From assembly GCF_020911865.1 (NCBI RefSeq), contig NZ_CP087131.1, forward strand, positions 372,001 to 436,000: a DNA stretch of 64,000 nt, written 5' to 3'. The translations under genes were made by a program, and so were the position numbers. The stretch comes from Chryseobacterium sp. C-71. GTDB lineage: Bacteria > Bacteroidota > Bacteroidia > Flavobacteriales > Weeksellaceae. This document shows, one piece after another, positions 8,339 through 29,843 of the stretch (positions within the stretch are counted from its first letter, which is position 1; every line of letters starts with the position of its first letter). The notes beneath the pieces are model-generated. The model saw only the letters and a program-made list of their open reading frames with translations. It did not search any database and was not told the DNA's origin.

Positions 8339-8361
8339 AATTTTTTAATGTTTAATATCTA

Positions 8362-8369: not shown

Positions 8370-8393
8370 GCAATAATTTATGTTTAGGACATA

Positions 8394-8436: not shown

Positions 8437-8459
8437 TATATTTAAAAGACTGAATTTTT

Positions 8460-8987: not shown

Positions 8988-9026
8988 ACAAAAAAAAATC
9001 CGTCATACGATTTTGTATGACGGATT
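8988..9026 (-). terminator. Rho-independent terminator of the OMP gene
   Basis: AATCCGTCATAC (8997-9008) pairs perfectly with GTATGACGGATT (9015-9026), 12 pairs with a six-base loop. On the minus strand a T run follows, provided by the A run at 8989-8998. Confidence 0.9.
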
Positions 9027-9055
9027 CATCTTTATTGAAATAAGATTATTTTTTC

Positions 9056-9760: not shown

Positions 9761-9990
9761 AACTTTAAATTTTTAATATTTACTATTTCCTAATTTTAAA
9801 TTTTACTGTCAAATTTTTCATTTTGACGAATGGTATCTTTCAAATTGTTTGCCAAAACCATAATTATAGGTCTGGATAAGACATGACAGATATCATTAAA
9901 TTGAATGTTTATTTTTAAATACCTTAAAATCAGGTGTTTAAATTATGCATTGAAATAATATGTTATGAATAATATTTGTTAAATTTAGTT

Positions 9991-11037: not shown

Positions 11038-11076
11038 TTTTTGATTTTTGAATAAATTAATAAGCAAACAATTGTA

Positions 11077-11084
11077 CAAAGTTA
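11077..11084 (-). promoter_or_regulatory. Bacteroidetes -7 promoter element for aroB
   Basis: On the minus strand this reads TAACTTTG, matching TAnnTTTG, 40 bases before the ATG at 11037. It helps choose that start over the upstream TTG. Confidence 0.55.
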
Positions 11085-11117
11085 TGATTCTTAATTTCTA
11101 ACTCGTAACTAAATCAC

Positions 11118-11125
11118 TATCTTTG
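11118..11125 (+). promoter_or_regulatory. Bacteroidetes -7 promoter element for the pseudouridine synthase
   Basis: The sequence TATCTTTG followed by C matches TAnnTTTGC, 15 bases before the ATG at 11140. The aroB promoter lies back to back within 40 bases. Confidence 0.6.
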
Positions 11126-11139
11126 CAAAAATATTTAGA

Positions 11140-12375
11140 ATGAGCAGAGACAATAATAATTCAGGAAGACCAAAAAAACCGAGATCTTCAACAAGAAATT
11201 CGGACAGTCCTCGCTCTCCTAAATCTGGAAATTCTTCAGATTCAAAATCTTTTAAGAAGCCGTTCTCTAAAACTGGCGGAAGAAGTTTTGAGCCAAAAGA
11301 TAGAGATGACAACGGCTCATCAAAATTTGAAAAAAAGCCTTTCGGCAGAAGCGATAGAGATACTGACAGCTCTACACCTTTTTCAAAACCTGATTCTAGG
11401 AGATCTGATACTAGCTATGAGAGTCGAATGGAAAAGAAATACTCAAAAGTTGAAAAAGAACCATTTGTATCCAACAAGGGTGAAGAAAAAAAATCTTTTG
11501 GATCTAAAAGGGGTGGTGTAAGAAGTACCAATACCAGAGATAAATACGAAAGAGGAAGCTTAAAATATGGAAGAAGACCTGGCAGCGAGACTGACAGAGA
11601 TGATGACAGAGCAAGATCTTTTGTACAGAAAAGAAGATTCAAGAAAGTTGAAAAAGATGTTCATAAAGACACGATTCGTCTTAACAAATACATCGCAAAC
11701 TCAGGAATTTGCAGCAGGAGAGAAGCGGATGACTTAATCGTTCAAGGATTGGTAGAAGTCAACGGAAAGGTAGTTACCGAAATGGGATATCAGGTTGAGA
11801 AAACAGATAAAGTAGTTTTTGACGGACAGGGTATTACTCCGGAAAAACCAGTTTATGTACTTTTGAATAAGCCAAAAGGATATATTTCTACAACCAAAGA
11901 TGACAAAGCAAGAAAAACCGTGATGGATTTGGTTGCCAATGCATCACCATATCGTCTGTTCCCGGTGGGAAGATTAGACCGTTCTACAACGGGAGTTATT
12001 CTTTTGACCAATGACGGACACATGACGAAGAAACTGACGCACCCATCTTTTGATTCTAAAAAAATCTATCATGTCACTTTGGATAAGAAATTAACCAATG
12101 AAGACATGAAGCTGATTGCGGAAGGTATTCGCTTGGAAGAAGGTATTGCAGTGGTAGATCAAATTTCGTTCATCGAAGGGAAACCAAGAAATGAAATTGG
12201 AATGGAAATCAGCATCGGCTGGAACCGTCTTATCAGAAGAATTTTCCAAAGATTAGGATACGAGGTGGAAGCATTAGACAGAGTAATGTTTGCAGGAATG
12301 ACGAAGAAAAACATCAAAAGAGGACATTGGAGAATCCTTACAGATTTGGAAGTGAATAACTTGAAAATGCTTTAA
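11140..12375 (+). CDS. rluB: 23S rRNA pseudouridine synthase (RluB-like) with long disordered N-terminus
   Basis: This 411-residue protein isomerises a uridine in 23S rRNA. The first 175 residues are low-complexity and rich in Ser, Arg, Lys, Asp and Gly, probably disordered and RNA-binding. An S4 RNA-binding domain follows (about 179-225, IRLNKYIANSGICSRREADD). The RsuA/RluB catalytic domain has Asp280 in the GRLDRSTTGVILLTNDG motif. The C-terminal IGWNRLIRRIFQRLGYEVEALDR is conserved in RluB. Such N-terminal extensions are common in Bacteroidetes homologues and absent from the 290-residue E. coli protein. The exact uridine modified is inferred from family. Confidence 0.88.
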   Translation: MSRDNNNSGRPKKPRSSTRNSDSPRSPKSGNSSDSKSFKKPFSKTGGRSFEPKDRDDNGSSKFEKKPFGRSDRDTDSSTPFSKPDSRRSDTSYESRMEKKYSKVEKEPFVSNKGEEKKSFGSKRGGVRSTNTRDKYERGSLKYGRRPGSETDRDDDRARSFVQKRRFKKVEKDVHKDTIRLNKYIANSGICSRREADDLIVQGLVEVNGKVVTEMGYQVEKTDKVVFDGQGITPEKPVYVLLNKPKGYISTTKDDKARKTVMDLVANASPYRLFPVGRLDRSTTGVILLTNDGHMTKKLTHPSFDSKKIYHVTLDKKLTNEDMKLIAEGIRLEEGIAVVDQISFIEGKPRNEIGMEISIGWNRLIRRIFQRLGYEVEALDRVMFAGMTKKNIKRGHWRILTDLEVNNLKML

Positions 12376-12398
12376 TAGAGATTTAAGTTTAAAATATA

Positions 12399-12433
12399 AA
12401 AGACGCAGAATTGATTTCTGCGTCTTTTTTTGT
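12399..12433 (+). terminator. Rho-independent terminator of the pseudouridine synthase gene
   Basis: AAAGACGCAGAA (12399-12410) pairs perfectly with TTCTGCGTCTTT (12416-12427) around a five-base loop, then a T run. Confidence 0.9.
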
Positions 12434-12502
12434 GTAGTAGATTATCAGTTAAGTTTGTATTAATAATTAACTCATAATTAATAATACAAAACTTATAACA
12501 GA

Positions 12503-13108
12503 TTACCCCAAAACCGTCACCCCTTTCTGAATCATCTCAAAAACAGCATCTTTACCGTTATCTGGTTTTACATTGACAGCACGGGTTCCGTTAAAATGAA
12601 GACAAGTTACGTAACCGTTTGCCACAGCATCTGTAGCGGTGAATTTTACACAGTAATCTAATGCCAGCCCAACAATTTCAACCAATTGAATATCGTGATA
12701 TTTTAAAAAGTCATCCAAACCGGTTTTCATAAAGTGATTGTTATCCTGAAAACCACTGTAAGCATCAATTTCAGTATTTTTCCCTTTTTGAATTACATGA
12801 GTTACTTTTTCTCTGTTCAGATCTTTATGAAATTCTGCCCCGAACGTTCCTTCCACACAATGATCTGGCCACATAAACTGCGGAACACCGTTTAAAATAA
12901 TACTTTCGCCAACTTTTCTATTGTTATTGCTTGCAAAACTTTTATGGTTGGCAGGATGCCAGTCCTGCGTCAGAACAATTTGGTCATATTCATTTTCTTC
13001 CATCAGAAGATTGATGTACGGAATTACTTCGTTTGCTCCTGGAACAGCTAAAGCTCCGCCTTCACAAAAATCATTCTGAACATCGACTATTATTAATGCT
13101 TTTTTCAT
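12503..13108 (-). CDS. pncA: Nicotinamidase / pyrazinamidase
   Basis: This 201-residue isochorismatase-fold amidase hydrolyses nicotinamide to nicotinate for NAD salvage. The catalytic triad is visible: Asp9 in IIVDVQNDFCEGGAL, a lysine in HVIQKGKNTEIDAYSGF, and Cys153 in GLALDYCVKFTATDA. The metal-binding TQDWHPANHKSF motif is present, as is the WPDHCVEGTFGAEF segment typical of PncA. Length fits the family (about 200). It is a single gene on the minus strand in front of a repeat-containing spacer. Confidence 0.94.
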   Translation of the reverse strand: MKKALIIVDVQNDFCEGGALAVPGANEVIPYINLLMEENEYDQIVLTQDWHPANHKSFASNNNRKVGESIILNGVPQFMWPDHCVEGTFGAEFHKDLNREKVTHVIQKGKNTEIDAYSGFQDNNHFMKTGLDDFLKYHDIQLVEIVGLALDYCVKFTATDAVANGYVTCLHFNGTRAVNVKPDNGKDAVFEMIQKGVTVLG

Positions 13109-13265
13109 ACTTATTATTATGGTTGATTTTTTTAATAATTTATTAAAATCTAATATTCAAAAATTTATCCAAATTTTAATTATCGGACAAAACGGCATTT
13201 AGAATATCGTTCTCAATCAATTTTATAAATGTGAAGAAGCTTATTAATACCTAAAAATGAACGCT

Positions 13266-13338
13266 CAGTTTGTCATTCCGGAGGAATCTCTATGATACTT
13301 TATTTTCGATATTTAGATTCCTCCGGAATGACAAACTG
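13266..13338. repeat. Perfect 24-bp inverted repeat (GTCATTC family)
   Basis: The arm at 13266-13289 (begins CAGTTTGTCATTCC, ends GGAATCT) is matched at all 24 positions by its reverse complement at 13315-13338, around a 25-base loop. Two arm positions differ from the copy at 44946-45002, and both are compensated on the opposite arm. It is an intergenic repeat that would form a long hairpin in RNA or extruded DNA. Confidence 0.9.
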
Positions 13339-13426
13339 CACGGAAAATGAAAAGGTTAAATAAAAGTCTTTATTTATTAAAATTATTACAATCAGTATTT
13401 TCTGGAATAAACAAATACCAATAGCT

Positions 13427-13434
13427 TATCTTTG
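13427..13434 (+). promoter_or_regulatory. Bacteroidetes -7 promoter element for the DEAD-box helicase
   Basis: TATCTTTG followed by CA matches TAnnTTTGC, 17 bases before the ATG at 13452. Confidence 0.6.
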
Positions 13435-13451
13435 CAATAAATCAATATTTT

Positions 13452-14594
13452 ATGTTATTTGAGTCTTTAGGATTATCAAGCAATATCATTCATTCTGTTA
13501 AAAAGTTAGGGTATTTAAAACCATTTCCAATTCAGGAACAGGCTATTCCTGTAATTTTACAAGGAAAAGATTTGATGGGAATTGCTCAAACAGGTTCCGG
13601 AAAAACAGCTTGTTTTGTAATGCCGATTTTAGAGAAACTGCAAAATGCAGACGTGAAAAAAGATCGTAACGTTCAGGTTTTGATATTGGTTCCTACAAGA
13701 GAATTGGCGATTCAGATTGATGAAGTTTTCAGAGCTTTTACAGAAAACTTGAAACGTGAGATTCGTACAATGGCAGTGTATGGAGGTGTTTCTATCAACC
13801 CACAGATGAAAGGAATGTTTGGTGTAGAGGTTCTTATTGCAACACCTGGTCGTCTTTTAGATTTGATCGATCATAATGCATTGAGCATTTCGGGAATTCA
13901 ACATTTGGTGATTGATGAAGCCGACAAAATGTTTCAGCTTGGTTTTGGAGAAGAGATGGATAAGCTTTTCGGAATGATGCCTGTGATGAAACAGACGACG
14001 TTATTTTCTGCAACGTTAGATGAAAAGGTTTCTGAGATGAAGAAACGTATTTCAATGAATCCCATATTGATTGAAATTAAAAAAGAAGAAGTTGAAATCG
14101 ACAATATTGAGCAAATGGCATATCACGTTTCGCCTGAAAATAAAGGTCCATTTTTAAGATATTTAATTAAAGAAAAGAAAGTTGAGAAAGCACTGATTTT
14201 TGTCTCATCTACAAAATCTGCTGACAATTTGGTTGAAAAACTAAAGAAAAATAAAATTAAAGCTGTTGCTATTCACAGTCAGAAATCGCAGGGTGCGCGT
14301 AGAAATAATCTGGAAGAATTTAAAGTGAATGGCGCTCAGATTTTGGTCGCAACAGATTTGATTGGTCGTGGTATTCATATCGAGTCTTTGCCTTGTGTGA
14401 TTAATTATGAATTGCCGCGTTCGCCTTTAGATTATATTCACAGAATTGGTAGGACAGGTCGTGCAGGCGAAAAAGGAACTGCCATCAATATTCTGACGGA
14501 TGATGAATTGCAACATTTTCGAGTGATTCAGAAAAAAATGGGAAAGAAAATCACTTTACAGCGTACAGAAGGTATTGATTTACATGGTTATTAA
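13452..14594 (+). CDS. DEAD-box RNA helicase (RhlE-like)
   Basis: This 380-residue ATP-dependent helicase unwinds short RNA duplexes, probably in ribosome assembly, mRNA turnover or cold adaptation. Motifs appear in order: Q motif (PFPIQEQAIP), motif I AQTGSGKT (45-52), PTRELAIQ, TPGRLLDL, motif II DEAD (155-158), SAT, IFVSSTKSA, VATDLIGRGIHIESL and HRIGRTGRAG. The two RecA domains make up almost the whole protein. The usual basic C-terminal tail of RhlE is missing, making it a minimal version. Confidence 0.92.
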   Translation: MLFESLGLSSNIIHSVKKLGYLKPFPIQEQAIPVILQGKDLMGIAQTGSGKTACFVMPILEKLQNADVKKDRNVQVLILVPTRELAIQIDEVFRAFTENLKREIRTMAVYGGVSINPQMKGMFGVEVLIATPGRLLDLIDHNALSISGIQHLVIDEADKMFQLGFGEEMDKLFGMMPVMKQTTLFSATLDEKVSEMKKRISMNPILIEIKKEEVEIDNIEQMAYHVSPENKGPFLRYLIKEKKVEKALIFVSSTKSADNLVEKLKKNKIKAVAIHSQKSQGARRNNLEEFKVNGAQILVATDLIGRGIHIESLPCVINYELPRSPLDYIHRIGRTGRAGEKGTAINILTDDELQHFRVIQKKMGKKITLQRTEGIDLHGY

Positions 14595-14616
14595 TGTATT
14601 CAATTAAACTTATAAT

Positions 14617-14648
14617 AAACTTCAATTTTTAAAAGAATTGGAGTTTTT
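14617..14648 (+). terminator. Rho-independent terminator of the helicase gene
   Basis: AAACTTCAATT (14617-14627) pairs with AATTGGAGTTT (one G-U pair) and is followed by a T run. Confidence 0.8.
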
Positions 14649-14794
14649 TTTGTCTAAAATTTTCAGACAAAATAATGATAATTAAAGTTTATTTCATATT
14701 TAAATTCTCGGATTTTTGATATTTTTACAAAAAACTTATTATCAAAAATTGCTTAAAAAAGATTGGAAAAGCAAGACTCAAATAAAAATCAACT

Positions 14795-15331
14795 ATGGAT
14801 AATTTAGAGCATAAAAAATTCCCCATCGGAAAATTTCAGGAAAATAATACCAGTTGCGACATTGAGCTGGAAAGCCATATTAAAGTCATCAAAAATTTCC
14901 CTGAAAAACTAAAAAAACTGATTGAAGATTTTTCAGATGAGCAATTAGACACACCATACAGAGAAGGTGGCTGGACGGTAAGACAACTTGTGAATCATCT
15001 GGCAGACAGTCATGCGAACAGTTTTATTCGTTTTAAATTAGCTTTAACAGAACAAAATCCAACGATAAAACCTTACGATGAAGCAAAGTGGGCAGAACTT
15101 CAGGACAGCATAAGCATGCCGGTAAAACCAGCGATGAAAATGTTGAAAGGTATTCATCAAAGATGGTATGTCTTATTAAAAACAATGACCAATAAGCAGT
15201 TTGAAAAAACCTTCCGTCATCCTGAAAAGGAAAATGACTATAATCTCAGATATTTTTTGGCTTTTTACGCTTGGCATTGCAATCATCACTTTGCACACAT
15301 TGAAAACTTAAAGAACGAAAAAGCTTGGTAA
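14795..15331 (+). CDS. YfiT/BstA-like DinB-fold protein (putative bacillithiol S-transferase)
   Basis: This 178-residue protein belongs to the YfiT branch of the DinB/YfiT four-helix family. Its opening KFPIGKFQ and EGGWTVRQLVNHLADSHANSFIRFKLALTE block are characteristic. The metal-binding histidines are visible in VNHLADSH and in AWHCNHHFAHI near the C-terminus. In Bacillus and Staphylococcus, relatives are metal-dependent bacillithiol transferases (BstA) that conjugate the thiol to electrophiles. It begins a tightly overlapping operon with a DUF1569 protein, YtxJ and a Crp regulator. The presence of YtxJ makes a bacillithiol role more likely, but this is inference. Confidence 0.85.
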   Translation: MDNLEHKKFPIGKFQENNTSCDIELESHIKVIKNFPEKLKKLIEDFSDEQLDTPYREGGWTVRQLVNHLADSHANSFIRFKLALTEQNPTIKPYDEAKWAELQDSISMPVKPAMKMLKGIHQRWYVLLKTMTNKQFEKTFRHPEKENDYNLRYFLAFYAWHCNHHFAHIENLKNEKAW

Positions 15332-15786
15332 AAAAAAGTCTTCATAACAGCAATGATTTTAATGAAATTATCTCAAGAATCTCACTGCTTTCCGAAAATT
15401 CTCATAGAAAATGGGGTAGGATGAACGTTGCACAAATGCTCACTCATTGCGAATTGATTTTAAAAGTTCCATTGAAAAAAGTTCATCTTTCTAAGCCAAA
15501 TTTTATATTCAGAGCAATAGGAATTTTAACTAAAAAAGAAATTCAGATTTTCAATAACGGAATTCCGCATAATATGCCGAGTTTTCAAAAACTAATCGTT
15601 AATTTTGAGTGTGATTTTGAGGGAGCAAAAAATAATCTTTTGAACACGCTAAACGAATACGTAAAAGCTTATGAAAATCATAATTTGCCCAATGATCACG
15701 CACTTTTTGGAACGATGAAAGAAAAGGATTGGGGTTTTATGGAATATAAACATCTCAATCACCATTTAAAACAATTTAATGTATGA
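15325..15786 (+). CDS. DUF1569 family protein
   Basis: This 153-residue protein has the DUF1569 hallmark NSHRKWGRMNVAQMLTHCELILKVPL, where the histidine in THCE is a likely metal ligand. DUF1569 is related to the DinB/YfiT superfamily, so this operon carries two such folds. The frame opens with TTG at 15325, inside the end of the upstream gene (seven-base overlap). No ATG lies near the family's usual start, so TTG is accepted. It overlaps the next gene by four bases. No specific reaction is known. Confidence 0.82.
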   Translation: MVKKSLHNSNDFNEIISRISLLSENSHRKWGRMNVAQMLTHCELILKVPLKKVHLSKPNFIFRAIGILTKKEIQIFNNGIPHNMPSFQKLIVNFECDFEGAKNNLLNTLNEYVKAYENHNLPNDHALFGTMKEKDWGFMEYKHLNHHLKQFNV

Positions 15787-16166
15787 GTTTTTTAGATAAA
15801 ATATTTGGCGGAAAGACAGAAGAAAATAAGTCAAAATCTTTTTGGAATTTAATAGAATCTGAAAAAGATTTGGAAGAAGCTATTAAAAAATCGTATTCTG
15901 GAAAAATTGCGATTTTCAAACATTCTACGAGCTGTTTTATCAGTAAAACGGTTTTGAAAAATTTTGAAAAAGAAATTGAAGAAGCTCAGGAACATGGCGC
16001 TACCCTTTACTTTTTAGACCTTTTGGCGCACAGAAATATTTCGAATAAAATCGCAGAAGATTTCGGGATAAGACATGAAAGTCCGCAATTGATTGTCATC
16101 GAAAATGGTGACGAAATCAATAATGCATCACATCAGGATATCACTTTAAGCCAGATCACCTCATGA
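15783..16166 (+). CDS. ytxJ: Bacillithiol system redox protein YtxJ
   Basis: This 127-residue thioredoxin-fold protein has a single active-site cysteine, Cys51, in FKHSTSCFISKTVL. It starts with the family's SFLDKIFGGK-like segment. YtxJ is found in organisms that make bacillithiol and is thought to act as a monothiol bacilliredoxin, removing bacillithiol from proteins. It overlaps both neighbours by four bases (ATGA), so the whole unit is almost certainly one transcript. No bshA, bshB or bshC gene lies in this window. Confidence 0.86.
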   Translation: MSFLDKIFGGKTEENKSKSFWNLIESEKDLEEAIKKSYSGKIAIFKHSTSCFISKTVLKNFEKEIEEAQEHGATLYFLDLLAHRNISNKIAEDFGIRHESPQLIVIENGDEINNASHQDITLSQITS

Positions 16167-16753
16167 GTAATATGACCAATTATTTAGCAAAAGTTTTAGA
16201 GGTTCCAGCAGAACGATTAAGCCTTTGCAGTGTACAATACGAAACAAAAAAAGTTTCTAAAGGTGAGCTTTTGTTGCAATACGGTGAAGTTTGCCGCAAT
16301 ACATTTTTCGTAGAAAAAGGACTTTTAAGAATGTTTTCTATTGATAAAAACGGAAAAGAGCACATTATTCAGTTTGCTCCTGAAAACTGGTTGATTGGCG
16401 ACCGAAGCAGTCTTTATTTCAGTGAAAAATCAAACTATTATATTGAAGCAGTAGAAGATTCTGAAGTTTCAGTTTTGCAGCGTGATTTTTTTAATAGATT
16501 ATTAGAAGAGTTTCCAAACAGCATAGAAAAAAATGATTTAGTCCTCCAAAAACATGTGAAAAGTTTACAAGACAGAATCAATTCTTTATTGGGTGAAACA
16601 GCAGAAGAAAGATATTTAAAATTCATCAAAATGTATCCTGATCTGCTTCTCAGAGTTCCACAGTGGATGGTGGCATCATATTTAGGAATCACACCTGAAA
16701 GCTTAAGCCGTGTGAGAAAAGAGTTGGCGAGAAAAAATTTTATAACTGATTAG
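16163..16753 (+). CDS. Crp/Fnr family regulator
   Basis: This 196-residue regulator has a cyclic-nucleotide-binding-fold domain (about 30-120, LLQYGEVCRNTFFVEKGLLRMF and IIQFAPENWLIGDRSSL) and a C-terminal winged helix (WMVASYLGITPESLSRVRKEL). The phosphate-binding cassette residues for cAMP are not obvious, as is usual in this Bacteroidetes group. No Fnr-type cysteine cluster is present. It ends the bacillithiol-like operon and may regulate it. It belongs to a different subgroup from the two Crp proteins at 17960 and 19385. Confidence 0.88.
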   Translation: MSNMTNYLAKVLEVPAERLSLCSVQYETKKVSKGELLLQYGEVCRNTFFVEKGLLRMFSIDKNGKEHIIQFAPENWLIGDRSSLYFSEKSNYYIEAVEDSEVSVLQRDFFNRLLEEFPNSIEKNDLVLQKHVKSLQDRINSLLGETAEERYLKFIKMYPDLLLRVPQWMVASYLGITPESLSRVRKELARKNFITD

Positions 16754-20280: not shown

Positions 20281-20583
20281 ATGATGAAAAATTTGGCAGA
20301 AGAGGAAATTATAAGACTTGCTAAAGACAACTCACCGCGACTTTTGAGTAAATTCAAAACTTCAAATCCGGATTTTTTTGAAAAACTGGCAGCAATACAA
20401 ACCAATCTCCAAAATTCGGAGCTGATATTTTGTATATATCTGAAATTGAATCTAACGACAAAAGAAATTGCGACCTACACTTATGTAACCCCGAAAGCAA
20501 TACAAAACAGAAAAAACAGAATCAGAAAAAAACTGAATATCTCTTCATCAGTCGATATTTATAAATGGTTTGATGAATTATAA
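20281..20583 (+). CDS. Stand-alone LuxR-type HTH protein
   Basis: This protein of about 100 residues consists only of the C-terminal region found in the membrane regulator at 5306-6241. Shared blocks are NPDFFEKL, SELIFCIYLKLNLTTKEIATYTYVTPKAIQNRKNRIRKKLNISSSVDI. It therefore has the DNA-binding helix-turn-helix without a sensor. A TTG at 20272 would add three residues; adjacent ATGs at 20281 and 20284 are more likely starts. It may be a truncated descendant of a larger regulator or a genuine small regulator. It converges with the pdeM gene (six-base gap). Confidence 0.72.
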   Translation: MMKNLAEEEIIRLAKDNSPRLLSKFKTSNPDFFEKLAAIQTNLQNSELIFCIYLKLNLTTKEIATYTYVTPKAIQNRKNRIRKKLNISSSVDIYKWFDEL

Positions 20584-20589
20584 ATTTAT

Positions 20590-21234
20590 CTAAATCTCAT
20601 AAATTTCAGAATCTGTAAAAACAAAATACATTCCTTTTTTAGGGATGTTTTTTGTATCCAGACCTGTGAATTCGCTGAACGCAGGCAACAACAATTGCTT
20701 TGAAGTTTGAGCAAAACAGGGTAGTTTAATTTTCTTAACTGGAGAATTGATAACAAATCCTGGATGAATATGTCCTGTGATTTGAAACTTAGGATTTGAA
20801 CGATCAAAATCGTGAACGAAAGCAATATCTTCAATTTCTAACGAAGCACTTCGTGAATCCAAACATAATTTTTTTTCTAATGTTTTCGAGATCTTATCGT
20901 GATTTCCTTCTACTAAAATGAATTTAATATCAGGATATTGATTTTGCCAAGCACAGAATTCATCAACATCTGAATTGTTTCCTGCATGCAATAAATCACC
21001 AACGATAATGAATTTTTCAGGCTGGAAGTTCTCAATTAAAATGGATAAACGCTCCAAATCATTTTTCATAATATGATTCGCTAAAGCAATTCCGTTTTTA
21101 CGAAAATGAGCGGTTTTTCCGATGTGTAAATCTGAAAAAATCAACGCCTTTTCCTTTTCCCAATACAAAGCTCTTTGGTTGGTTAAAGTGAAGATTTCAT
21201 TTTGAATGGTTATGTCTTTGGTCGCTATCTTCAT
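20590..21234 (-). CDS. pdeM: Ligase-associated DNA damage response endonuclease PdeM
   Basis: This 214-residue calcineurin-like metallophosphoesterase carries all metal motifs: FSDLHIGKTAHF, VGDLLHAGNN, VEGNHDK and ITGHIHPG. These match the ligase-associated group (TIGR04123-type), about 215 residues long. It is predicted to process DNA ends or single strands in repair together with the linked helicase, ligase and exonuclease. It is last in a minus-strand operon, 24 bases after the helicase gene. Biochemical roles come from family knowledge. Confidence 0.9.
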   Translation of the reverse strand: MKIATKDITIQNEIFTLTNQRALYWEKEKALIFSDLHIGKTAHFRKNGIALANHIMKNDLERLSILIENFQPEKFIIVGDLLHAGNNSDVDEFCAWQNQYPDIKFILVEGNHDKISKTLEKKLCLDSRSASLEIEDIAFVHDFDRSNPKFQITGHIHPGFVINSPVKKIKLPCFAQTSKQLLLPAFSEFTGLDTKNIPKKGMYFVFTDSEIYEI

Positions 21235-21258
21235 AGTAAAGTTGGAAGACGGAAGTTT

Positions 21259-23715
21259 TTATTCATCTTTAATATTTCTTCCGGATTGTTTAATTAATTT
21301 CTGAATTCTCGCATCGAGATTTTCACTCGTCAGAGTCTGCCGTAAACTGTCGACCTTAATCGGGAAACTCAAAGGCGTAAATTTATTGGAATATTTTAAA
21401 ATAAACTTCGATTTCTCAATTCGTTTAAAAGCTTCTACTAAACGTTGTTCCTGCAATTGCATATTGAAAACTTCCGTATAAGCCTGCCTTACCAAAAAAT
21501 GATTCGGATCGTAATCTTCCAATACTTTGAAAATCAATCCGGCTGAACTTTGCAAAGCTTTATTGGAACGTTGCTGTCCAGGGAAATTCTGCACAACCAT
21601 TCCTGAAATTACCGCAATATCTCTGAATTTACGTCTCGCCATTTCGGCCGAATTAATACTCGAAATCACATCAACCATCAGATTATCTCTCGTCAGAATT
21701 TTATCTAAATTATCCTCATTCAGCGGAATTTCTTTATCGCTGAACAGTTCAAAACCGTAATCATTCATCGCCATTGAAAAGGAAATTGGAGCCAGTTTGG
21801 AAATTCGGTAGGCAATCAACGCTGCCATCACTTCGTGTACCAAACGGCCTTCAAAAGGATACATAAACAAATGATAGCCTTCACGGTTTTTAATGAGTTC
21901 AATCAAAAATTCATCATCTTTCGGAATGTGTGAACGCTTTTCCTGATTGGCCAAAAGCGGATGTAGAAATTTCAGTTCCTTCTCAGAAGCTTTCGGATTC
22001 AACGCTCCGGACAATTTTTCTCGTAAAAAATGACCCAAATTTGAACTTAAAGGCAATCGTCCACCCAAGTAACTCGGCGCTTGCGCTTTTCCTTTGGAAG
22101 CCCGAACGAAAACCGTCATATCTTTAATCATCGCCACTTCCAAAACTCTACCCGCTAAAATAAATTTTTCTTCTTTTTTCAATCTTGAAATAAAATATTC
22201 CTCAACCATCCCGATATAACCACCGGAAATAAATTTAACTTTTAACATAGCATCGCTGACAATGGCGCCCATATTCATTCGATGGAGCATTGCAATTTTT
22301 CGGGAAGTCACTTTGTGCAAACCATCTTCCATCACAACAACTTTATGGTATTCTTCGTAGCTTTTCAACGCGCTTCCGCCAATCGTTAGAAAATCTATCA
22401 TCGCTTTCCATTCTTCATCCCTAATCTCTTGAAACGTATAAACTTTTTTGATTCTTTCGTAAACTTCATCGGGAAAGAATCCGTCGCCAACCGCCAAAGT
22501 CATCAGGAACTGAACCAAGACATCAAAGCACAAAACCACTGGTTCACGAGGTTCAATAACTTTTTGTTTTACAGCTTCTTTTAGTGCGGCAACTTCAATC
22601 AATTCCAAAGAATGCGTAGGAACGCAGAAGATTTTTGAGGTCTCAAAAGGGGAGTGGCCACTTCGTCCTGCACGTTGCAGAAATCTCGCAACACCTTTCG
22701 CAGAACCAATTTGAATGACCGTATCAACAGGTTTAAAGTCGATTCCCAAATCCAAAGACGAAGTGGAAACAACCGCTTTTAATTTTCCTGAACTTAAATT
22801 TTCTTCGATCCAGATTCTCAAATGCGCATCAATTGAACTGTGATGAATGGCGATTTGTCCGGCAAAATCGGGGTATGCATTCAGTAAAAGCTGATACCAC
22901 ATTTCGCTCTGACTTCGTGTATTCGTAAAAACAATGGTCGATTTTGACTCCAAAATTATTGGAACAACTTTGTCTGCTAATTTCTGTCCGAGATGTCCTG
23001 CCCAAGGCAAAAGTTCGACTTCATCTGGGAAAACCGAAATAATATCAATTTTCTTGAGTTCTTTAGCTGTAATTTTTGTTTTCTTAATGTCATAAGGAAT
23101 CAAAACATCCTGCGCTTCATTGAGATTTCCTATAGTTGCCGTAATTCCCCAGATTTTAAGTTTCGGAACATAATGAAAGAGTTGTGAAATTCCCAGTTCG
23201 ACCATCACACCACGTTTTGAACCCAACAATTCGTGCCATTCATCCACCGCAACGCAATGCATATTGGTAAAGAATCGCTGATGATTTTTCTGAGCCAAAA
23301 GCAAGTGCAGACTTTCTGGAGTTACGACCAGAATTTCAGGCATATTTTTGACCTGCTGTTGACGGACTTTCGGGTCGGTGTCGCCATTTCTTACGCCGAC
23401 TGCCAAGTCTAGTCCAATCTCGTCAATTGCTTCCTGCATTGCTTTGGCAATATCTTTGGATAAAGAACGAAGTGGCGTAATCCAAATCATTTTCAGCCCT
23501 TTCTTATACTTATCAGGATTCGTCAGAAAATCTGAAATTAAAGCTAAAAACACAGAAAAAGTCTTCCCAAAACCGGTCGGAGCTACCACCATTCCGCTGT
23601 AGCCACTGCCAAATTTCTTCCAGGTATCCACCTGAAATTTGAATGGGGAATTGCCTTTTTCCATCATCCAGTTTTGAATGATTTTGAAGCCTTCTGTATT
23701 TTCGTAGTTGCTCAA
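21259..23715 (-). CDS. Ligase-associated DNA damage response DEXH-box helicase (Lhr-like)
   Basis: This 818-residue superfamily 2 helicase has Walker A VAPTGFGKTFS near residue 42-52, the motif WITPLRSLSKDIA, TPESLHLLLAQ, the DEWH box in AVDEWHELLG, and WGITATIGN. The second RecA domain shows FTNTRSQSEMWYQ, STSSLDLGIDFKPVDTVIQIGS and RFLQRAGRSGH. The long C-terminal Lhr-core region is intact, giving the usual length of about 815. It works with the ligase-associated nucleases in DNA end repair. It starts only 20 bases after the HNH gene, which interrupts its usual link to the ligase. Confidence 0.93.
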   Translation of the reverse strand: MSNYENTEGFKIIQNWMMEKGNSPFKFQVDTWKKFGSGYSGMVVAPTGFGKTFSVFLALISDFLTNPDKYKKGLKMIWITPLRSLSKDIAKAMQEAIDEIGLDLAVGVRNGDTDPKVRQQQVKNMPEILVVTPESLHLLLAQKNHQRFFTNMHCVAVDEWHELLGSKRGVMVELGISQLFHYVPKLKIWGITATIGNLNEAQDVLIPYDIKKTKITAKELKKIDIISVFPDEVELLPWAGHLGQKLADKVVPIILESKSTIVFTNTRSQSEMWYQLLLNAYPDFAGQIAIHHSSIDAHLRIWIEENLSSGKLKAVVSTSSLDLGIDFKPVDTVIQIGSAKGVARFLQRAGRSGHSPFETSKIFCVPTHSLELIEVAALKEAVKQKVIEPREPVVLCFDVLVQFLMTLAVGDGFFPDEVYERIKKVYTFQEIRDEEWKAMIDFLTIGGSALKSYEEYHKVVVMEDGLHKVTSRKIAMLHRMNMGAIVSDAMLKVKFISGGYIGMVEEYFISRLKKEEKFILAGRVLEVAMIKDMTVFVRASKGKAQAPSYLGGRLPLSSNLGHFLREKLSGALNPKASEKELKFLHPLLANQEKRSHIPKDDEFLIELIKNREGYHLFMYPFEGRLVHEVMAALIAYRISKLAPISFSMAMNDYGFELFSDKEIPLNEDNLDKILTRDNLMVDVISSINSAEMARRKFRDIAVISGMVVQNFPGQQRSNKALQSSAGLIFKVLEDYDPNHFLVRQAYTEVFNMQLQEQRLVEAFKRIEKSKFILKYSNKFTPLSFPIKVDSLRQTLTSENLDARIQKLIKQSGRNIKDE

Positions 23716-23734
23716 GATTTTAATGGTATTTAAA

Positions 23735-24664
23735 TTAATCTAAAAGATTTTTATCAATGCGTAATAGTTTATCAATTATATCTTTTTTGAACTTACTAAA
23801 TGGCCTTTTATGATAATCATTTTCGTTTATTTCTATTCCAAAAATTGTTCTATAAATTTCATCTTTACTAATCTTCAAATTTTCAAAAGTATTTTCTGTA
23901 AGTATTTTTATATAATTTTTTGAATATTTATATCTTAGATTTACTAAATCTCTTAGTTCCTTTTCAGAATGTGAATTATAAATTTCTTTGGTTTTATTGA
24001 AGTTGAGAGTTTTGTCTGTTTTAATATTTTTTTTAAAACTTTTAGTTTCAACATTTAATCTATCTAAAGATTTATTATAAAAAAAGTCAAAACTAAATCC
24101 CTCATTATTTTCTTTAAAATAAGGATGAATATATTCATTTAATGCATTGTCCCAATCAATTTTTGGATTTCCTTTTATATGATTGCAAGAATGACAACTT
24201 GGGATTAAATTATAAAATGATAATGATAATAAAGGAAACTGTGTTTTAGGAAACCAATGGTCAAGCTCTGCTCTAGAGTGATTTTTTGTTATATTAATTG
24301 TATAATTTCTATTACAATAGACGCAAGTATCAACTCCTATTAAATCTAAAAACTCTTTTCCATATTTTTTTTGAAAACCACCATAACCCGTCTGCAAAAA
24401 GAAATTTTTAATATAGTCTTTCTCTGAATCACTTAGAATAATATTTTCATATACCTTATTAATTTCTAATAATCTTTTTGGTTTTCCTGAAATTAAATCT
24501 GTAGCATTATTATGTAGAAAATCCAAAAAATCTTTATTTAAATGTATATTTAAGGATGGTCTACCTCTTTTTATGTAGCCTTTATCTAATATTTCATCAA
24601 AAATATTTTGAACTTTTTCTGTATGAAATTCAAATGCTTTTTTATTAAATTTTAAATAAATCAT
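23735..24664 (-). CDS. HNH endonuclease, Septu PtuB-like
   Basis: This 309-residue nuclease has an HNH core: Cys114-x2-Cys117, AELDHWFP (Asp135, His136), YNLIPSCHSCNHIKG (Asn152, Cys157, Cys160, His162). The two CxxC pairs should hold a structural zinc and the DH/N/H residues a catalytic metal. The N-terminal 110 residues and the Lys-rich C-terminal 130 have no recognised fold. Its ATG shares one base with the stop of the upstream ATPase (TAATG), so translation is probably coupled. An ATPase followed by an HNH nuclease is the layout of the Septu anti-phage system, in which PtuB cuts nucleic acid. Composition is much more AT-rich than the repair genes around it. Confidence 0.8.
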   Translation of the reverse strand: MIYLKFNKKAFEFHTEKVQNIFDEILDKGYIKRGRPSLNIHLNKDFLDFLHNNATDLISGKPKRLLEINKVYENIILSDSEKDYIKNFFLQTGYGGFQKKYGKEFLDLIGVDTCVYCNRNYTINITKNHSRAELDHWFPKTQFPLLSLSFYNLIPSCHSCNHIKGNPKIDWDNALNEYIHPYFKENNEGFSFDFFYNKSLDRLNVETKSFKKNIKTDKTLNFNKTKEIYNSHSEKELRDLVNLRYKYSKNYIKILTENTFENLKISKDEIYRTIFGIEINENDYHKRPFSKFKKDIIDKLLRIDKNLLD

Positions 24665-26703
24665 TATAGTTTTTCAATTTTATATCCTAATTCTTCTGCT
24701 AACTTTTTTAATTCTTTTTCTTTTTGGTCTTCTTCGAATTCAAGAGGAAAAAGTTCATAGAATTTTTCTTTCAACTTATAATGTATTACAGTTTCATCAA
24801 TAAGATTAATTATTTTCTTATAATAATCTATTTGTGCAATATTTTCTTGGAAATTTTTATTAGTTTTTATTTTTTCTTCCATTTCAATCAACCACTGAAT
24901 CGTTTCTTCAACTTTTTGTTTAGCGAAAGCTCCCACCAGTCCATCATTTAAGAAAAAACTATCTTCTAAAAGCTCGGAAATATTACCTGCAAATGTGTTT
25001 TTATTCTCATAATCCTTTGGTTGAGATTTTTGGTTTTCATTAACTTCTAGAAATAATACGTTTTGTTTGGGAATATCAGATAAAATAAAAGGTGAATGTG
25101 TAATGAAAGTAAAGTTTAAATTTTTTATAAAATCTAATTTTAATTTATTAACATTATCAATTAAATCTTTCACATAATTAATTTGCATTTCCGGGTGATA
25201 ATAAAGTTCAATCTCATCAAGAATTACATTTAAATTTTCATACTTATATTTTGCATTTTTATTATAATGAACTGAATTTAAATTCAGTAAATGATATAAT
25301 ATAGAATTAAGACTGTAAATTCGTTGTTTCTCTCCTGAACTTAATGCTGAGAAAGAATAATTTCCATCCAAAATGAAATCGCTCACGAATATTGCTGGAG
25401 GCAAAAAATAGATAGCTTGACAATTATTTTTATTTTTAAAAAATTCAATTTTGCTTCTTACATTTTGATTTACTTCTTCAAAAAAATCTCTAAAATTATT
25501 ATCAACAAAAGTTTGTTTTTCGTAATAATTTTTAAACAAAATATTTTGTTTTCGATTTTGTAAATTGTTAAAAAATAAAAAATTTAAAGCCTGCTTTAGT
25601 TTCAAAGTAATATGACTATTATCTAAGTTTAGTTGAGTATAGAATTCTTTTGAATTATTAATAGTATATGTAATATTATCCCCTTCAACATAAATATTAT
25701 AATCTTTGTAAAAATCATATTGCTCAGTAATTTTCACTAATTTTCGTAGAATGTAATTTATAAGGATTTTATTTATTCCATCATATGTTAAATCCAGTTC
25801 ATTCGAATTAAATTTGAAAAAGAATTTTAGAAGATAATTCTTAAAATATACATCAGGGTCATCATAGTAGCGAGAAGAATCATTATCATCAATATAATAA
25901 CCAAAATCATTTTCATACTCCTTCAATTCAATTGTAAAATTCAAAATTTTTTTATTGGATCCGATTGATAATAAACTTTCGTTAAGAACTAAATTTGTAA
26001 TGAATCTTTGCTTCGCCAAATCAGTTTCTGTATTAATATCGAAATTCCCTTCTGTTCTCATTGGATTTAAAACTATGGGAGTTTGATATCCATCATTCTT
26101 GTGAAAAATAGACTCTATCCAATCTCCAACTTCTTTTGAATTTAGACCATAAAGAGAATAATTAATTACAATATTATATAAGAATGAGTTTTTATCTAAT
26201 AATTCTTTTAGATGATTTTTTTCATCATCAATTAGTACGAATTTTAGTTTGTCTTTTTCAAAACATCTAATTTGTGTAGGCTTAGCGGAAAATATTATCT
26301 GATAAATTTTTTCTTCTAAAAGAAAATAAAGCTCTAAATTAATATCAGATATTTGTAAAAATTTGTTGCTTTTTTTGATGACACCATTTTCAATCGATAA
26401 ATTATAAAATGCTATATAAATTAACTCTAATAAACTACTTTTACCACTTCCATTTTTTCCAACTACGGCTGAAATATTGATTTTGTTTCCATAGAAATTT
26501 TCAGGAATCGATTCATTGTATTTAATTTCTGTAATCGATTTGTCTGAAATATCTATTTCATTTTCGTAATTGTCAATTTTTGTATCTCCATTAAAAAATT
26601 CGTAATCATTATAAAACTTATAAAATCTATTAATCTCTAAGTTTTTAAGAAACGATTTTTTACAGTTTTTTAATGGTCTAATTGCTAAAATTTTAAAACT
26701 CAT
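24664..26703 (-). CDS. AAA/ABC-type ATPase, Septu PtuA-like
   Basis: This 679-residue ATPase has Walker A GKNGSGKSS (82-90), an ABC-type signature LSSGEKQR (about 454-461), Walker B NVILDEIELYYHPE (Asp496, Glu497) and a FITHSPFILSD switch. The middle 350 residues are long, helical and lysine/asparagine-rich, as in SMC/OLD-like defence ATPases. In Septu, PtuA senses the phage and controls the PtuB nuclease. A TTG at 26721 would add six residues, but ATG at 26703 (MSFKILAIRPLK) gives a normal beta-strand start. The gene is strikingly AT-rich: a sampled 60-base stretch at 25441 has 11 G/C, against 31 in one from the helicase. This suggests acquisition. Confidence 0.8.
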   Translation of the reverse strand: MSFKILAIRPLKNCKKSFLKNLEINRFYKFYNDYEFFNGDTKIDNYENEIDISDKSITEIKYNESIPENFYGNKINISAVVGKNGSGKSSLLELIYIAFYNLSIENGVIKKSNKFLQISDINLELYFLLEEKIYQIIFSAKPTQIRCFEKDKLKFVLIDDEKNHLKELLDKNSFLYNIVINYSLYGLNSKEVGDWIESIFHKNDGYQTPIVLNPMRTEGNFDINTETDLAKQRFITNLVLNESLLSIGSNKKILNFTIELKEYENDFGYYIDDNDSSRYYDDPDVYFKNYLLKFFFKFNSNELDLTYDGINKILINYILRKLVKITEQYDFYKDYNIYVEGDNITYTINNSKEFYTQLNLDNSHITLKLKQALNFLFFNNLQNRKQNILFKNYYEKQTFVDNNFRDFFEEVNQNVRSKIEFFKNKNNCQAIYFLPPAIFVSDFILDGNYSFSALSSGEKQRIYSLNSILYHLLNLNSVHYNKNAKYKYENLNVILDEIELYYHPEMQINYVKDLIDNVNKLKLDFIKNLNFTFITHSPFILSDIPKQNVLFLEVNENQKSQPKDYENKNTFAGNISELLEDSFFLNDGLVGAFAKQKVEETIQWLIEMEEKIKTNKNFQENIAQIDYYKKIINLIDETVIHYKLKEKFYELFPLEFEEDQKEKELKKLAEELGYKIEKL

Positions 26704-26757
26704 AATTATTAATTTTAACAAAAATATCTAAACAAAAAATAAGAAACTAATAATAAA

Positions 26758-28338
26758 TTACTGTATCAATTTCTTAATCTCTTCAATATCATCAATATCA
26801 TTTACTGTTTTATCTTTCCGCCATCTTAGAATCCTTGGAAAACGCAATGCCACACCGCTTTTGTGACGGTTGCTGAAGCCAATTCCTTCAAACGCAATTT
26901 CGAAAACCAATTCAGCTTTTACGGTACGGACAGGACCGAATTTTTCAATCGCATTTTTATTCACAAACTTGCTGACTTCCATAATTTCCTTGTCGGTCAG
27001 TCCAGAATATGCTTTGGCAATGGTGACCAATTTATCGCCACTTTTCACGGCAAAGCTGTAATCAGTGTAGTAGGCACTTCTTCGTCCGCTACCTTTTTGG
27101 GCGTAAATCAAAACTGCATCAATCGTCAACGGACTGATTTTCCATTTCCACCAATCCCCTTTTTTTCGTCCTGAATGATAATGCGAATTTTTCTGTTTCA
27201 GCATCAAACCTTCGCTGTTGATTTCCCTTGAATTTTCTCTGATTAAATCTAATTTACTCCAATCTTCATAATCAATAGCCTGAGAAATTTTGATGTTTTC
27301 GGGAGATTCATTTAATAATAATTCCTGCAACATTGCTCTTCTGGCAGAAATGGGTTTTTCTCTTAAATCCGTTCCTTCCAGTTCCAGAATATCATACGCA
27401 AAAACCTCAATCGGAATTTCAGTAAGCATTTTTTTAGTTAAAGTTTTACGATTTAATCGTTTCTGTAATTCATTAAAATTTAAAACGTTACCTTCCTTTA
27501 CCGCAAGTATTTCTCCATCTATTACAAAGTTGCCTTTCATCGCTTTTACGGTCTCGGCAATTTCGGGAAATTGTTCGGTCACCAATTCTTCCCCGCGCGA
27601 CCAGATAAAAACTTCTTCATTTCTTCTGATGATTTGTCCACGGATTCCGTCCCACTTATATTCAATCAACCATTCTTCAGGTTTTCCTAAATCTTCCAAC
27701 TCTTTTTCCAGTGGATAGGCCAAACAAAAAGGGTAGGGTTTTGAATTATCGGGATTGATGTTTTCAGCCGAAATCAATTCTTTGAATGAAACTTCATCAG
27801 GTTGCCATTTCCCCATTAAACTGTGCATCAAAGTGCTTGCTTCCTGTCCGGAAAATTTGGTTAAAGAATTAATCAAAGTCTTTGAGGAAACCCCAATTCT
27901 GAAACTTCCGCCTAATAATTTATTGAAAATTAATCGTTCGGTATAATCTAAACCAGCCCAGGAATTTAAGACAAATTCTTTTTTCTCGGCTTCAGTTTTG
28001 GTTTTCAGTCCGATGATTTCATTCATCCATTCAGACAGTGTTTTCTCGATTTTTTCTGTAGGCGGAGGAAGAATCAATGATATCGTTTCACCCAAATCTC
28101 CGACCGAAGAATAGCTTTCTTGAAACAGCCAAAAAGGCAGTTGGATAATTTCCAAAGCCCATTCTTTCATATAGTTGGTGTTCACATTCCGCTTGGGTCT
28201 TTTCCCCGTAAACAAGGCGATGAACCACAATTTATCATCATCAGGCGCACGCTCAAGATAATCGATGATGGCATCGATTTTAGCATTGGTTTTATTGGTG
28301 CTTTCTAAGGCATTGATGAGTTCTGCGAAATTTTTCAT
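26758..28338 (-). CDS. ATP-dependent DNA ligase (ligase-associated repair cluster)
   Basis: This 526-residue ATP-dependent ligase seals nicks via a ligase-adenylate on Lys228 in the EYKWDGIRGQ motif. Other motifs are FVIDGEILAVKEG, EVFAYDILELEG, SEGLMLKQKNSHYHSGRKKGDWWKWK and an OB-fold C-terminus with ELVFEIAFEGIGFSNRHKSG and RFPRILRWRKDK. The first 200 residues form the N-terminal DNA-binding domain. Length and arrangement match the TIGR04120-type ligase that gives this repair cluster its name. The ATPase gene begins 54 bases downstream, where the helicase would normally follow. Confidence 0.93.
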   Translation of the reverse strand: MKNFAELINALESTNKTNAKIDAIIDYLERAPDDDKLWFIALFTGKRPKRNVNTNYMKEWALEIIQLPFWLFQESYSSVGDLGETISLILPPPTEKIEKTLSEWMNEIIGLKTKTEAEKKEFVLNSWAGLDYTERLIFNKLLGGSFRIGVSSKTLINSLTKFSGQEASTLMHSLMGKWQPDEVSFKELISAENINPDNSKPYPFCLAYPLEKELEDLGKPEEWLIEYKWDGIRGQIIRRNEEVFIWSRGEELVTEQFPEIAETVKAMKGNFVIDGEILAVKEGNVLNFNELQKRLNRKTLTKKMLTEIPIEVFAYDILELEGTDLREKPISARRAMLQELLLNESPENIKISQAIDYEDWSKLDLIRENSREINSEGLMLKQKNSHYHSGRKKGDWWKWKISPLTIDAVLIYAQKGSGRRSAYYTDYSFAVKSGDKLVTIAKAYSGLTDKEIMEVSKFVNKNAIEKFGPVRTVKAELVFEIAFEGIGFSNRHKSGVALRFPRILRWRKDKTVNDIDDIEEIKKLIQ

Positions 28339-28638
28339 TTCTTCATTTCTTTAATTTGGATATAATTTACATCCATTGAATGTTTTGTATTTTTGGGCAG
28401 CTATGACCTTCGTTCGTAAATTTATTTCAATAAAAGTCTACGCCTTTCTTTCATTTATGCCTTCTGTTCCCTCGAAATCCACTCAAGTCGGGCTGCGGGC
28501 AATTCGACGTTTAAAACTAATTACTTAATGTCGCTCCTACGGAGCTCAAACTTCTCACATTATTACCTTCTTCTACAAACATTTCGCTCCTACGGAGCTT
28601 CCGAAACTTTCAAGGTTTAATGAAAATTAATCGCTTAT
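28339..28638. repeat. 300-base spacer with repeats between ligase and exonuclease
   Basis: No gene is seen. A repeat element spans about 28392-28497, bounded by TTTGGGCAGCT and TCAAGTCGGGCTGCG; the same bounds occur at 44803-44912. After it, the 16-base phrase TCGCTCCTACGGAGCT occurs twice (28531-28546 and 28584-28599), each a palindrome of CTCC/GGAG around TAC. The exonuclease and ligase genes may therefore be separately transcribed. Confidence 0.7.
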
Positions 28639-29673
28639 TCAAGCTTGCTTATCTTTTTTATCTGATACAACTTCCTTTTCAGTCACTTCATCGTCATCAT
28701 CTCCATACAGCGTTTCCACAACATCAGATTTAATTCCGATTTCATTTAAATATTTAGAAAAAACTTCGGTTTGACCGTGTGTTACGTGAACGATTTCAGC
28801 TTCAGTTGCTTTGATTGCCTGTAACAATCCTTTCCAGTCGGCATGGTCACTCATCGGAAAACCAGCGTCCATACTTCGCCATCTTCTCGCACCACGAACC
28901 TGCATCCAACCGGAGCAAATTGCTGTCGCAGCATCAGGAATTTTCTTAATTACATTGCTGTCTAACAATGCCGGCGGAACAATGACAATGTCACCTGCAA
29001 CGTGTTTGATGCTTTCCCTGAAATCTGGAACTTCATAATCTGGAAGCACGATTCCGACTTCTTCAAAGGCTTTATTGAGTTTTCCAATCGAGTAGTGGAC
29101 GTGTATTTTTCCCATTCCTTCAACGGCTTTCATAATTCGCTGCGCTTTACCCAAAGAATATCCGATAAACACGGAAGTTTTCTGATTTTCCTGATTCCGC
29201 AAAACCCAATTCTGAAGTCTTTTATTTAAATCAGGAACTTCAAGCCAATTGTAAATAGGAAGTCCGAAAGTACTTTCTGTAACAAATTCATTACACTTTA
29301 CCAATTCAAAAGGCGTACTCAAACCGTCATCCTGAACTTTATAATCACCTGAAACCACGCTCACATAACCTTTATATTCCAAACGAATCTGAGCCGAACC
29401 AATAATGTGACCAGCCGGATGCAGTGAAAGTTTGACCCCATTAATGTCTAAAACTTCGCCGTATTGCAAAGTCTGACATTCGATATCCGGAGAAATCCTT
29501 TGATGTAAGATGGGTTTTGTGAAGTGATGGCAAAGATATTTTTTCATTCCCCAACGGGCGTGATCTGCGTGACCGTGCGTGATAACTGCAAAATCTACAG
29601 GTCGCCACGGGTCAATATAAAATTTACCCTGCGGACAGTAAATACCTTTGTTTGTGAATGTGATGAGTTTCAA
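28639..29673 (-). CDS. Ligase-associated DNA exonuclease (metallo-beta-lactamase fold)
   Basis: This 344-residue nuclease has the metallo-beta-lactamase core with THGHADHARWG (His33, His35, Asp37, His38), LHPAGHIIGSAQI and VSGDYK, and the beta-CASP elements VFIGYSLGKAQRI, AICSGWMQVRG and PMSDHADWKG. It is related to SNM1/Artemis and the bacterial ligase-associated exonucleases (TIGR04122-type, about 335 residues). It would trim DNA ends before ligation. The charged C-terminal tail (DDDDEVTEKEV) is poorly conserved. It is upstream of the ligase but separated by a repeat-rich spacer. Confidence 0.92.
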   Translation of the reverse strand: MKLITFTNKGIYCPQGKFYIDPWRPVDFAVITHGHADHARWGMKKYLCHHFTKPILHQRISPDIECQTLQYGEVLDINGVKLSLHPAGHIIGSAQIRLEYKGYVSVVSGDYKVQDDGLSTPFELVKCNEFVTESTFGLPIYNWLEVPDLNKRLQNWVLRNQENQKTSVFIGYSLGKAQRIMKAVEGMGKIHVHYSIGKLNKAFEEVGIVLPDYEVPDFRESIKHVAGDIVIVPPALLDSNVIKKIPDAATAICSGWMQVRGARRWRSMDAGFPMSDHADWKGLLQAIKATEAEIVHVTHGQTEVFSKYLNEIGIKSDVVETLYGDDDDEVTEKEVVSDKKDKQA

Positions 29674-29843
29674 ATGAGTGATGATTAGTGTGTTTCTGAA
29701 TATTCAAAAACCTAACCAAATTATGTTTTTTCGATACTTATATGCAATTAGCTCTAAATTTAAGTTCGTTTTCAAATTTTCTTATTCAAATTATTTAAAA
29801 ACTTGAATTGTTTTTATATTTCTTTTGAAACAATTTTATTAAT

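Follow-up and report, generated by a model that had tools for sequence, protein, structure and literature searches.

In Chryseobacterium sp. C-71 (assembly GCF_020911865.1, contig NZ_CP087131.1), the 64,000-nt stretch from 372,001 to 436,000, referred to here as the window and cited in its own numbering, contains a pair of genes for a PtuA-like ABC-type ATPase (679 aa, 24664..26703) and a PtuB-like HNH nuclease (309 aa, 23735..24664) that is lodged within a ligase-associated DNA repair operon. All six genes of the locus lie on the minus strand, in the order exonuclease, ligase, ATPase, HNH, helicase, PdeM. The four repair genes are clustered and exceed their curated NCBIfam cut-offs, in keeping with the first-pass annotation of this DNA: the ligase-associated exonuclease (TIGR04122, 28639..29673; 436.9 bits, cut-off 325), the cisplatin-response ATP-dependent DNA ligase at the upstream border of the insertion (TIGR04120, 26758..28338; 612.4 bits, cut-off 400), the Lhr-type ligase-associated DEXH helicase with its TTG start (TIGR04121, 21259..23715; 1060.3 bits, cut-off 850), and the PdeM phosphoesterase (TIGR04123, 20590..21234; 211.7 bits, cut-off 150). 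An AT-rich leader of 54 bases (26704..26757) separates the ligase stop from the ATPase ATG at 26703, for which the open reading frame (ORF) finder also offered a TTG at 26721, while a gap of 19 bases (23716..23734), recognized as the downstream border from ORF coordinates and border comparison, separates the HNH stop from the helicase start. Within the pair the ATPase stop and the HNH start share a single base (TAATG), and beyond these two genes the ligase–helicase interval holds one 75-aa antisense ORF. In 500-base windows the GC content of the pair is 0.21–0.25, versus 0.36–0.42 in helicase, ligase and exonuclease, PdeM falling below the other repair genes at 0.30–0.34. The layout claimed at first pass, namely a shared strand, gaps of 54 and 19 bases, a one-base overlap and an AT-rich ATPase gene with an HNH gene between ligase and helicase, thus agrees with the coordinates to the base. 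Consensus scans of 20500–29700 returned 7 terminator-like sites (4.7 in shuffled sequences, sd 3.0) and 47 promoter-like sites (35.5 in shuffles, sd 5.7), counts that give no ground for placing a promoter or terminator at the borders of the pair; Bacteroidota promoters deviate from the consensus.

Sequence profiles and predicted structures support assignment of the pair to the PDC-M62 family and its description as Septu-like. The best PADLOC match of the ATPase is PDC-M62A (PDLC04737, 3.8e-44, residues 69–678), with PtuA1 (2.2e-17) among the weaker ones, and that of the HNH protein is PDC-M62B (PDLC04743, 5.2e-45, residues 1–300), followed by PDC-M01B (2.8e-14) and PtuB1 (6.2e-12). Because the PtuA1 and PtuB1 scores are the weaker ones for both proteins, the pair is filed as PDC-M62 rather than as PtuA/PtuB proper. 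Only HNH (21.4 of 21.4 bits) and AAA_21 exceed Pfam cut-offs in the pair, and the NCBIfam equivalogs for retron Ec78 fall far short, at 34.3 of 500 bits for PtuA and 29.8 of 150 bits for PtuB. When solved structures were searched, PtuA (8ee4_A, E 1.7e-7) and retron PtuA ranked first for the ATPase-family profile, and the HNH-family profile returned a single chain (E 0.036) that is not a PtuB. AlphaFold models of the two proteins (pLDDT 81.1 and 80.6) are closest in fold to PtuA and PtuB chains, respectively, the top rows for both being Septu and type I-A retron chains, and for the ATPase the top-scoring PtuA rows lead the highest Rad50 row by about 2.

The catalytic motifs are intact and conserved. 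An alignment of 24 ATPases (the window protein and 23 homologs, taken from 120 among the matches listed, with 3935 found) shows a Walker A motif around K88 in which G82, K83, N84, G85, G87, K88 and S89 are invariant and position 86 is the sole variable column, together with an invariant SSGE signature (S455–E458), Walker B (D496–E497) and H-loop (H536). In 23 HNH sequences (the window protein and 22 homologs, from 120 among the matches listed, with 864 found) the residues D135, H136 and N152 and both CxxC pairs (114/117 and 157/160) are invariant, and the H136/N152 spacing equals that of H75/N91 in the PtuB described in PMC13096335. Since homologs retain these catalytic residues and the pair shows a dN/dS of about 0.12–0.15 against its Chryseobacterium caseinilyticum counterpart (see below), it is not a chance pair of ORFs. 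The resemblance to Septu noted at first pass is therefore borne out by defence profiles, by the family match to 8ee4 and by the folds of the models, and the profile search that it called for places both proteins within defence families, with the PADLOC phage-defence candidate PDC-M62 first and PtuA/PtuB next.

The borders of the pair can be read from G133 (locus L051), a close relative that lacks an insertion here, whose helicase is 98.5% identical and whose ligase and helicase are separated by a 119-bp spacer. In the window the pair replaces this spacer, beginning right after the ligase stop and ending just before the helicase start. Transposition with target duplication was considered and set aside, as comparison of the L051 empty site with the window revealed no visible duplication. 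A second instance, found through the ATPase search and lying outside the sample of relatives described below, occurs in C. caseinilyticum (L199, same contig as G209), where the pair sits between the same ligase and helicase genes, although an extra T there places a TAG at codon 9 of the ATPase and breaks its frame, unless this is an assembly error. Its 61-base leader is closely similar to the 54-base leader of the window, for which reason the leader probably belongs to the inserted unit. Between the two copies, pS is 0.40 for the ATPase and 0.28 for the HNH gene, versus 0.43–0.52 for exonuclease, ligase and helicase, which is consistent with an insertion dating from about the divergence of its flanks, or from somewhat later, pS being only a rough guide to age because the GC of the pair is low. 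The corresponding dN/dS values, 0.12–0.15 in the pair versus 0.02–0.03 in the same three genes, are consistent with purifying selection on proteins that change more quickly than the repair proteins beside them. The C. caseinilyticum locus also carries a further 3.4-kb insert between helicase and PdeM (13518–16643), which by eye encodes a secreted protein together with a regulator of TPR-like type.

Comparison with relatives covered the 132 of 197 sampled family genomes in which the helicase exceeded the cut-off, the remaining 65 standing outside it; 130 of the 131 other loci were compared (G156, at a contig start, being left out), and the ligase–helicase gap was measurable in 128. No match to the window ATPase or HNH protein at E 1e-5 was found in the 130 loci. 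The gap has a median of 46 bp, exceeding 250 bp in 13 relatives and 1000 bp in 6, and in eight of the 128 other genes occupy the junction. In L143 and L150 these are a cytosine methyltransferase and a restriction enzyme on the opposite strand (MTase_II 1.3e-77 and REase_II 2.2e-35 in L143), in L142 and L151 a co-directional Fic protein (SoFic 5.3e-40 in L142), in L047 and L049 ParD–ParE on the opposite strand, and in L141 a DyP peroxidase with an ORF lacking a Pfam match, again on the opposite strand. Profiles were run on L143, the HNH gene of L098, L142, L047 and L141, and the cargo of L150, L151 and L049 was assigned by likeness. In L098 (3560–5960) the junction carries a restriction-modification system of the L143 kind in decay, with a methyltransferase truncated at the start; a different HNH gene interrupts this system, a case of layered turnover. 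Because several occupied junctions look orthologous, the eight perhaps represent about four events.

Junctions devoid of genes are variable as well. The 760-bp gap of L060 contains no gene-sized ORF, and the empty junctions of L156, L159 and L058 are filled by a palindromic dispersed repeat with ACCACAAAAGTCACAAAAG arms. This repeat, searched as 19 bases with up to 2 mismatches, is present in 7 to 46 copies in each of seven genomes, and several of the spacers inspected in 14 relatives are palindromic and repetitive. The absence of the pair from all 128 measurable junctions, taken with the other cargo in eight of them, therefore supports the view that the ligase–helicase junction is a recurrent landing slot, and comparison of gene order likewise supports the proposal that the pair is an insertion in the repair operon rather than an ancestral, invariant part of it.

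Other junctions of the operon also expand. Counting L199, junctions longer than 400 bp number 4 of 126 between exonuclease and ligase (the L100 case among them being an artefact of the alignment), 10 of 129 between ligase and helicase, and 21 of 117 between helicase and PdeM. Fourteen of these last 21 hold a co-directional ORF of 170–218 aa, read by eye as phosphoglycerate mutase in L044 and L064, and two others (L150, L155) hold a RhuM-Fic protein, the L150 copy being matched by PADLOC PDC-S23. In a ligase plus helicase tree of 23 chosen genomes, genera g1 and g9 are mixed, with 8 changes of which at least 4 are forced by starred branches, unlike the rpoB tree of the same genomes, which separates the two genera in one change (100/100); the pair may therefore have travelled with a mobile operon or recombined into it. 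The exonuclease–ligase–helicase block itself (L039–L168) appears, from this conflict, to have been exchanged between the two genera. No mobility gene lies beside the pair at this locus. A phage-borne cassette was rejected because a search of 50,697 phage records yielded no relative of the ATPase, and a plasmid-borne one because none of 26 matching plasmid records covers 80% of the query at one place. Remote phage relatives do exist, since PHROGs families match both proteins (best 4.7e-11 for HNH, 4.3e-15 for the ATPase).

Relatives of the ATPase at E 1e-20 are present in 62 of 320 family genomes, of which 30 places were opened as loci, and among 72 related loci (L170–L241, some places being counted twice) the ligase operon is the setting only of L170 and L199, which belong to the same genome. 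A general preference for co-directional operon neighbors was not upheld: in a rough census of 47 loci, of which 46 had an upstream ORF and in which automatic assignment failed for L204, L210, L215, L222 and the broken L199, this ORF was co-directional in 37/46 and within 100 bp in 24/46, controls being only slightly lower at 0.72 and 0.43 (n=541). Certain settings nonetheless recur. The pair follows uvrA in L212, L215, L218, L222, L227, L228, L175, L196 and, in the genome of the window itself, L260 (L172, L174 and L190 duplicate L228, L227 and L218). The ATPase frame is intact in seven of the nine loci, starting at an ATG 77–81 bp behind uvrA; in L222 it is short, and in L215 none was found. 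While UvrA is 93–96% identical to that of L212 across the slot, six of the seven intact ATPases are of the MSFK type and only 37–54% identical to one another, that of L212 being of another type. The HNH family in fact has ATPase partners of two types, which begin with MSFKLLAIRP in the one and with MKLVAIYIKK or MRLVAIYLKD in the other (L212 vs L218 and L260; also L208). The L260 copy (7661–14604; C1, about 649660–656603) is a second intact Septu-like pair in the genome of the window, with an ATPase of 772 aa and an HNH protein of 383 aa overlapping by 14 bases; uvrA lies 78 bp ahead of it, and a conserved gene of 137 aa comes after it. In other species this slot holds other cargo or none, and among the best 30 uvrA loci of 97 genomes that of the window's own genome alone matches the window ATPase.

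Three further settings were noted. The pair lies between two RlaP genes in L205, L208, L210 and L220 (the same as L183), L232 having RlaP upstream only; these RlaP-like genes (PF10127, RNA repair) were identified by Pfam on L205, L208 and L220, and in L208 a single base separates the HNH stop from the second RlaP. In L242, L243 (=L206), L244 and L245 (=L207), a PDC-M62 pair stands 25–26 bp behind sngC of a Shango operon (four cases among the 17 Shango-bearing genomes in the matches listed), whose SngA, SngB and SngC were identified by PADLOC on L206. Compared with L206, L242 and L244 show identities of 97 and 99% in SngB and of 94 and 95% in SngC; despite these near-identical operons, the ATPases of L242, L243 and L244 are only 36–42% identical and represent three different pairs. 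The Shango operon of L247 has a different two-gene module (1180 and 663 aa) at this position, and behind the Shango-borne pair of L206 an opposite-strand gene (11504–12721) resembles, by eye, a tyrosine integrase and is a possible carrier. Finally, the pair follows type I hsdS in L221, L229, L231, L235, L238 and L240. Unrelated upstream neighbors are found too, such as AdoHcyase in L200 and an outer-membrane protein in L214. Since the ATPases of the uvrA and sngC slots have diverged in near-identical settings, it seems that such pairs have settled at these sites more than once, though the slots were noticed after the fact, in loci found via the pair and with no base rate for repair neighbors to set them against.

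Taken together, we consider it probable that the pair is a self-contained Septu-like PDC-M62 defence module in a recurrent slot, acting by RNA-cutting abortive infection, with the repair enzymes as its neighbors and not its partners. In the Septu system EcB88, substitution of the Walker residues K43 or D316 of PtuA, or of PtuB H75 or N91, abolishes defence; infected cells grow poorly, and the variable loop of tRNA-Tyr is cleaved (PMC13096335). The PtuAB of retron-Eco7 also depletes tRNA-Tyr, and that of retron-Eco4 does not (PMC11555353). Presumed counterparts of the EcB88 key residues are present in the window pair as K88, D496, H136 and N152. By analogy, the ATPase would form a PtuA-like oligomer restraining the HNH subunit, phage infection would free the nuclease, and the freed nuclease would cut host RNA, most likely tRNA as in the two characterized PtuAB systems, so aborting the infection; the co-directional position would give the pair read-through expression from the operon. 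An RNA target fits the RlaP setting of some related pairs. In its place the pair is unusual but explicable, the junction of this repair operon being a variable one.

HNH nucleases are for the most part DNA enzymes, and a Septu-like defence whose HNH subunit would attack DNA, of the phage or of the host, instead of tRNA, unlikely as we judge it, has in its favor this general tendency, the restriction-modification or DNA-repair surroundings of several related pairs and the lack of tRNA loss with retron-Eco4 PtuAB (PMC11555353). Weighing against it are the action of two PtuAB systems on tRNA-Tyr and the related pairs lodged between genes named for RNA repair (L205, L208, L210, L220). Less probable still, and indeed rather improbable, is a functional tie to the neighbors, whereby PDC-M62 pairs would be guards at fixed positions beside uvrA, the ligase–Lhr helicase operon, RlaP, Shango and type I restriction-modification genes, sensing failure or hijacking of the adjacent machine and cutting tRNA. 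At this locus the pair would monitor or use the repair machinery, its nuclease being released by phage attack on, or overload of, the ligase/Lhr helicase machine. PrrC, which sits in a type I restriction locus, provides a precedent for the setting. The diverged second pair 78 bp after uvrA in the same genome, the company of uvrA, RlaP, sngC and hsdS elsewhere, and the repeated settling suggested by divergent ATPases at the uvrA (37–54%) and sngC (36–42%) slots all speak for such a tie; yet none of the 128 measurable junctions of sampled relatives carries the pair, the slots hold unrelated cargo too, and the loci were collected from the pair itself. The first-pass annotation had left two options, a landing site supplying expression or cooperation with the repair enzymes. 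The varied cargo of the junction favors the landing site, and cooperation finds no direct support, with 70 of 72 related loci elsewhere and the examined ligase operons without the pair.

An addiction-like or selfish module of the toxin–antitoxin kind, with no role in defence, would accord with the patchy distribution (62 of 320 family genomes) and with ParDE in the same slot of L047 (by profiles) and L049 (by likeness), but is very improbable: as the interval holds just two genes and one 75-aa antisense ORF, there is no evident antitoxin, and the PDC-M62 family groups with Septu. Hardest of all to credit is that the pair is a domesticated repair component of the operon, given the margin of PtuA over Rad50 in the fold comparison, the lack of the pair in every measurable orthologous junction and a base composition foreign to the operon. 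The locus shows a small Septu-like module lodged in a housekeeping operon for repair without an adjoining mobility gene, and a few junctions (ligase–helicase, the 3' ends of uvrA and sngC, the RlaP pair) seem to swap such modules between species, which makes them concrete places to seek new defence genes in Flavobacteriia. Should the pairs be guards after all, this genome would possess two, one for nucleotide excision repair and one for the ligase operon. Whether such a pair guards repair or is a mere lodger becomes a testable question, and what most merits further attention is the repeated choice of junctions near genes for defence or for the repair of nucleic acids.

Among known systems, Septu shares with the window pair an adjacent ABC-type ATPase and HNH nuclease with the same motifs and folds, but the window proteins are larger (679 aa vs 465 aa in 8ee4_A, and 309 aa vs 205–250 residues in PtuB chains) and score less well with its profiles than with those of PDC-M62. 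The PtuA/PtuB effectors of type I-A retrons (Ec78/Eco7, Ec83/Eco4) have the fold of both subunits in common with the pair, while differing in their NCBIfam cut-offs, which it does not reach, and in their reverse transcriptase, for which the interval has no gene. A retron was accordingly rejected, the four surrounding genes being repair genes and no Rfam family reaching its gathering score in the window; SNORD75, the sole sub-threshold match within the pair at 18.9 of 50 bits, is regarded as a chance hit. Shango operons with a PDC-M62 pair likewise place it directly against a DEXH helicase gene, although there it follows the helicase in a defence operon and here it precedes the ligase-associated one. 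Among the matches listed for the six window proteins scanned there is no SngA or SngB, and the window helicase, which exceeds TIGR04121, matches SngC only as a relative (3.4e-58). PDC systems have been called unpublished candidates in PMC11811056, where PDC-M62 accounted for 203 of the 244 Septu calls that had a PADLOC duplicate; in the literature found, we encountered no function for the PDC-M62 family and, within the portions accessible, no description of either PDC-M62 or Septu following uvrA or lying in a ligase operon. With PDC-M62 itself, whose profiles are the top matches and span almost the whole of each protein, the pair shares the adjacency of the components, differing in its place inside a DNA-repair operon. 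With the ligase-associated repair cluster, in turn, the locus shares the full set of exonuclease, ligase, DEXH helicase and PdeM, and is set apart from it by the two foreign genes between ligase and helicase.

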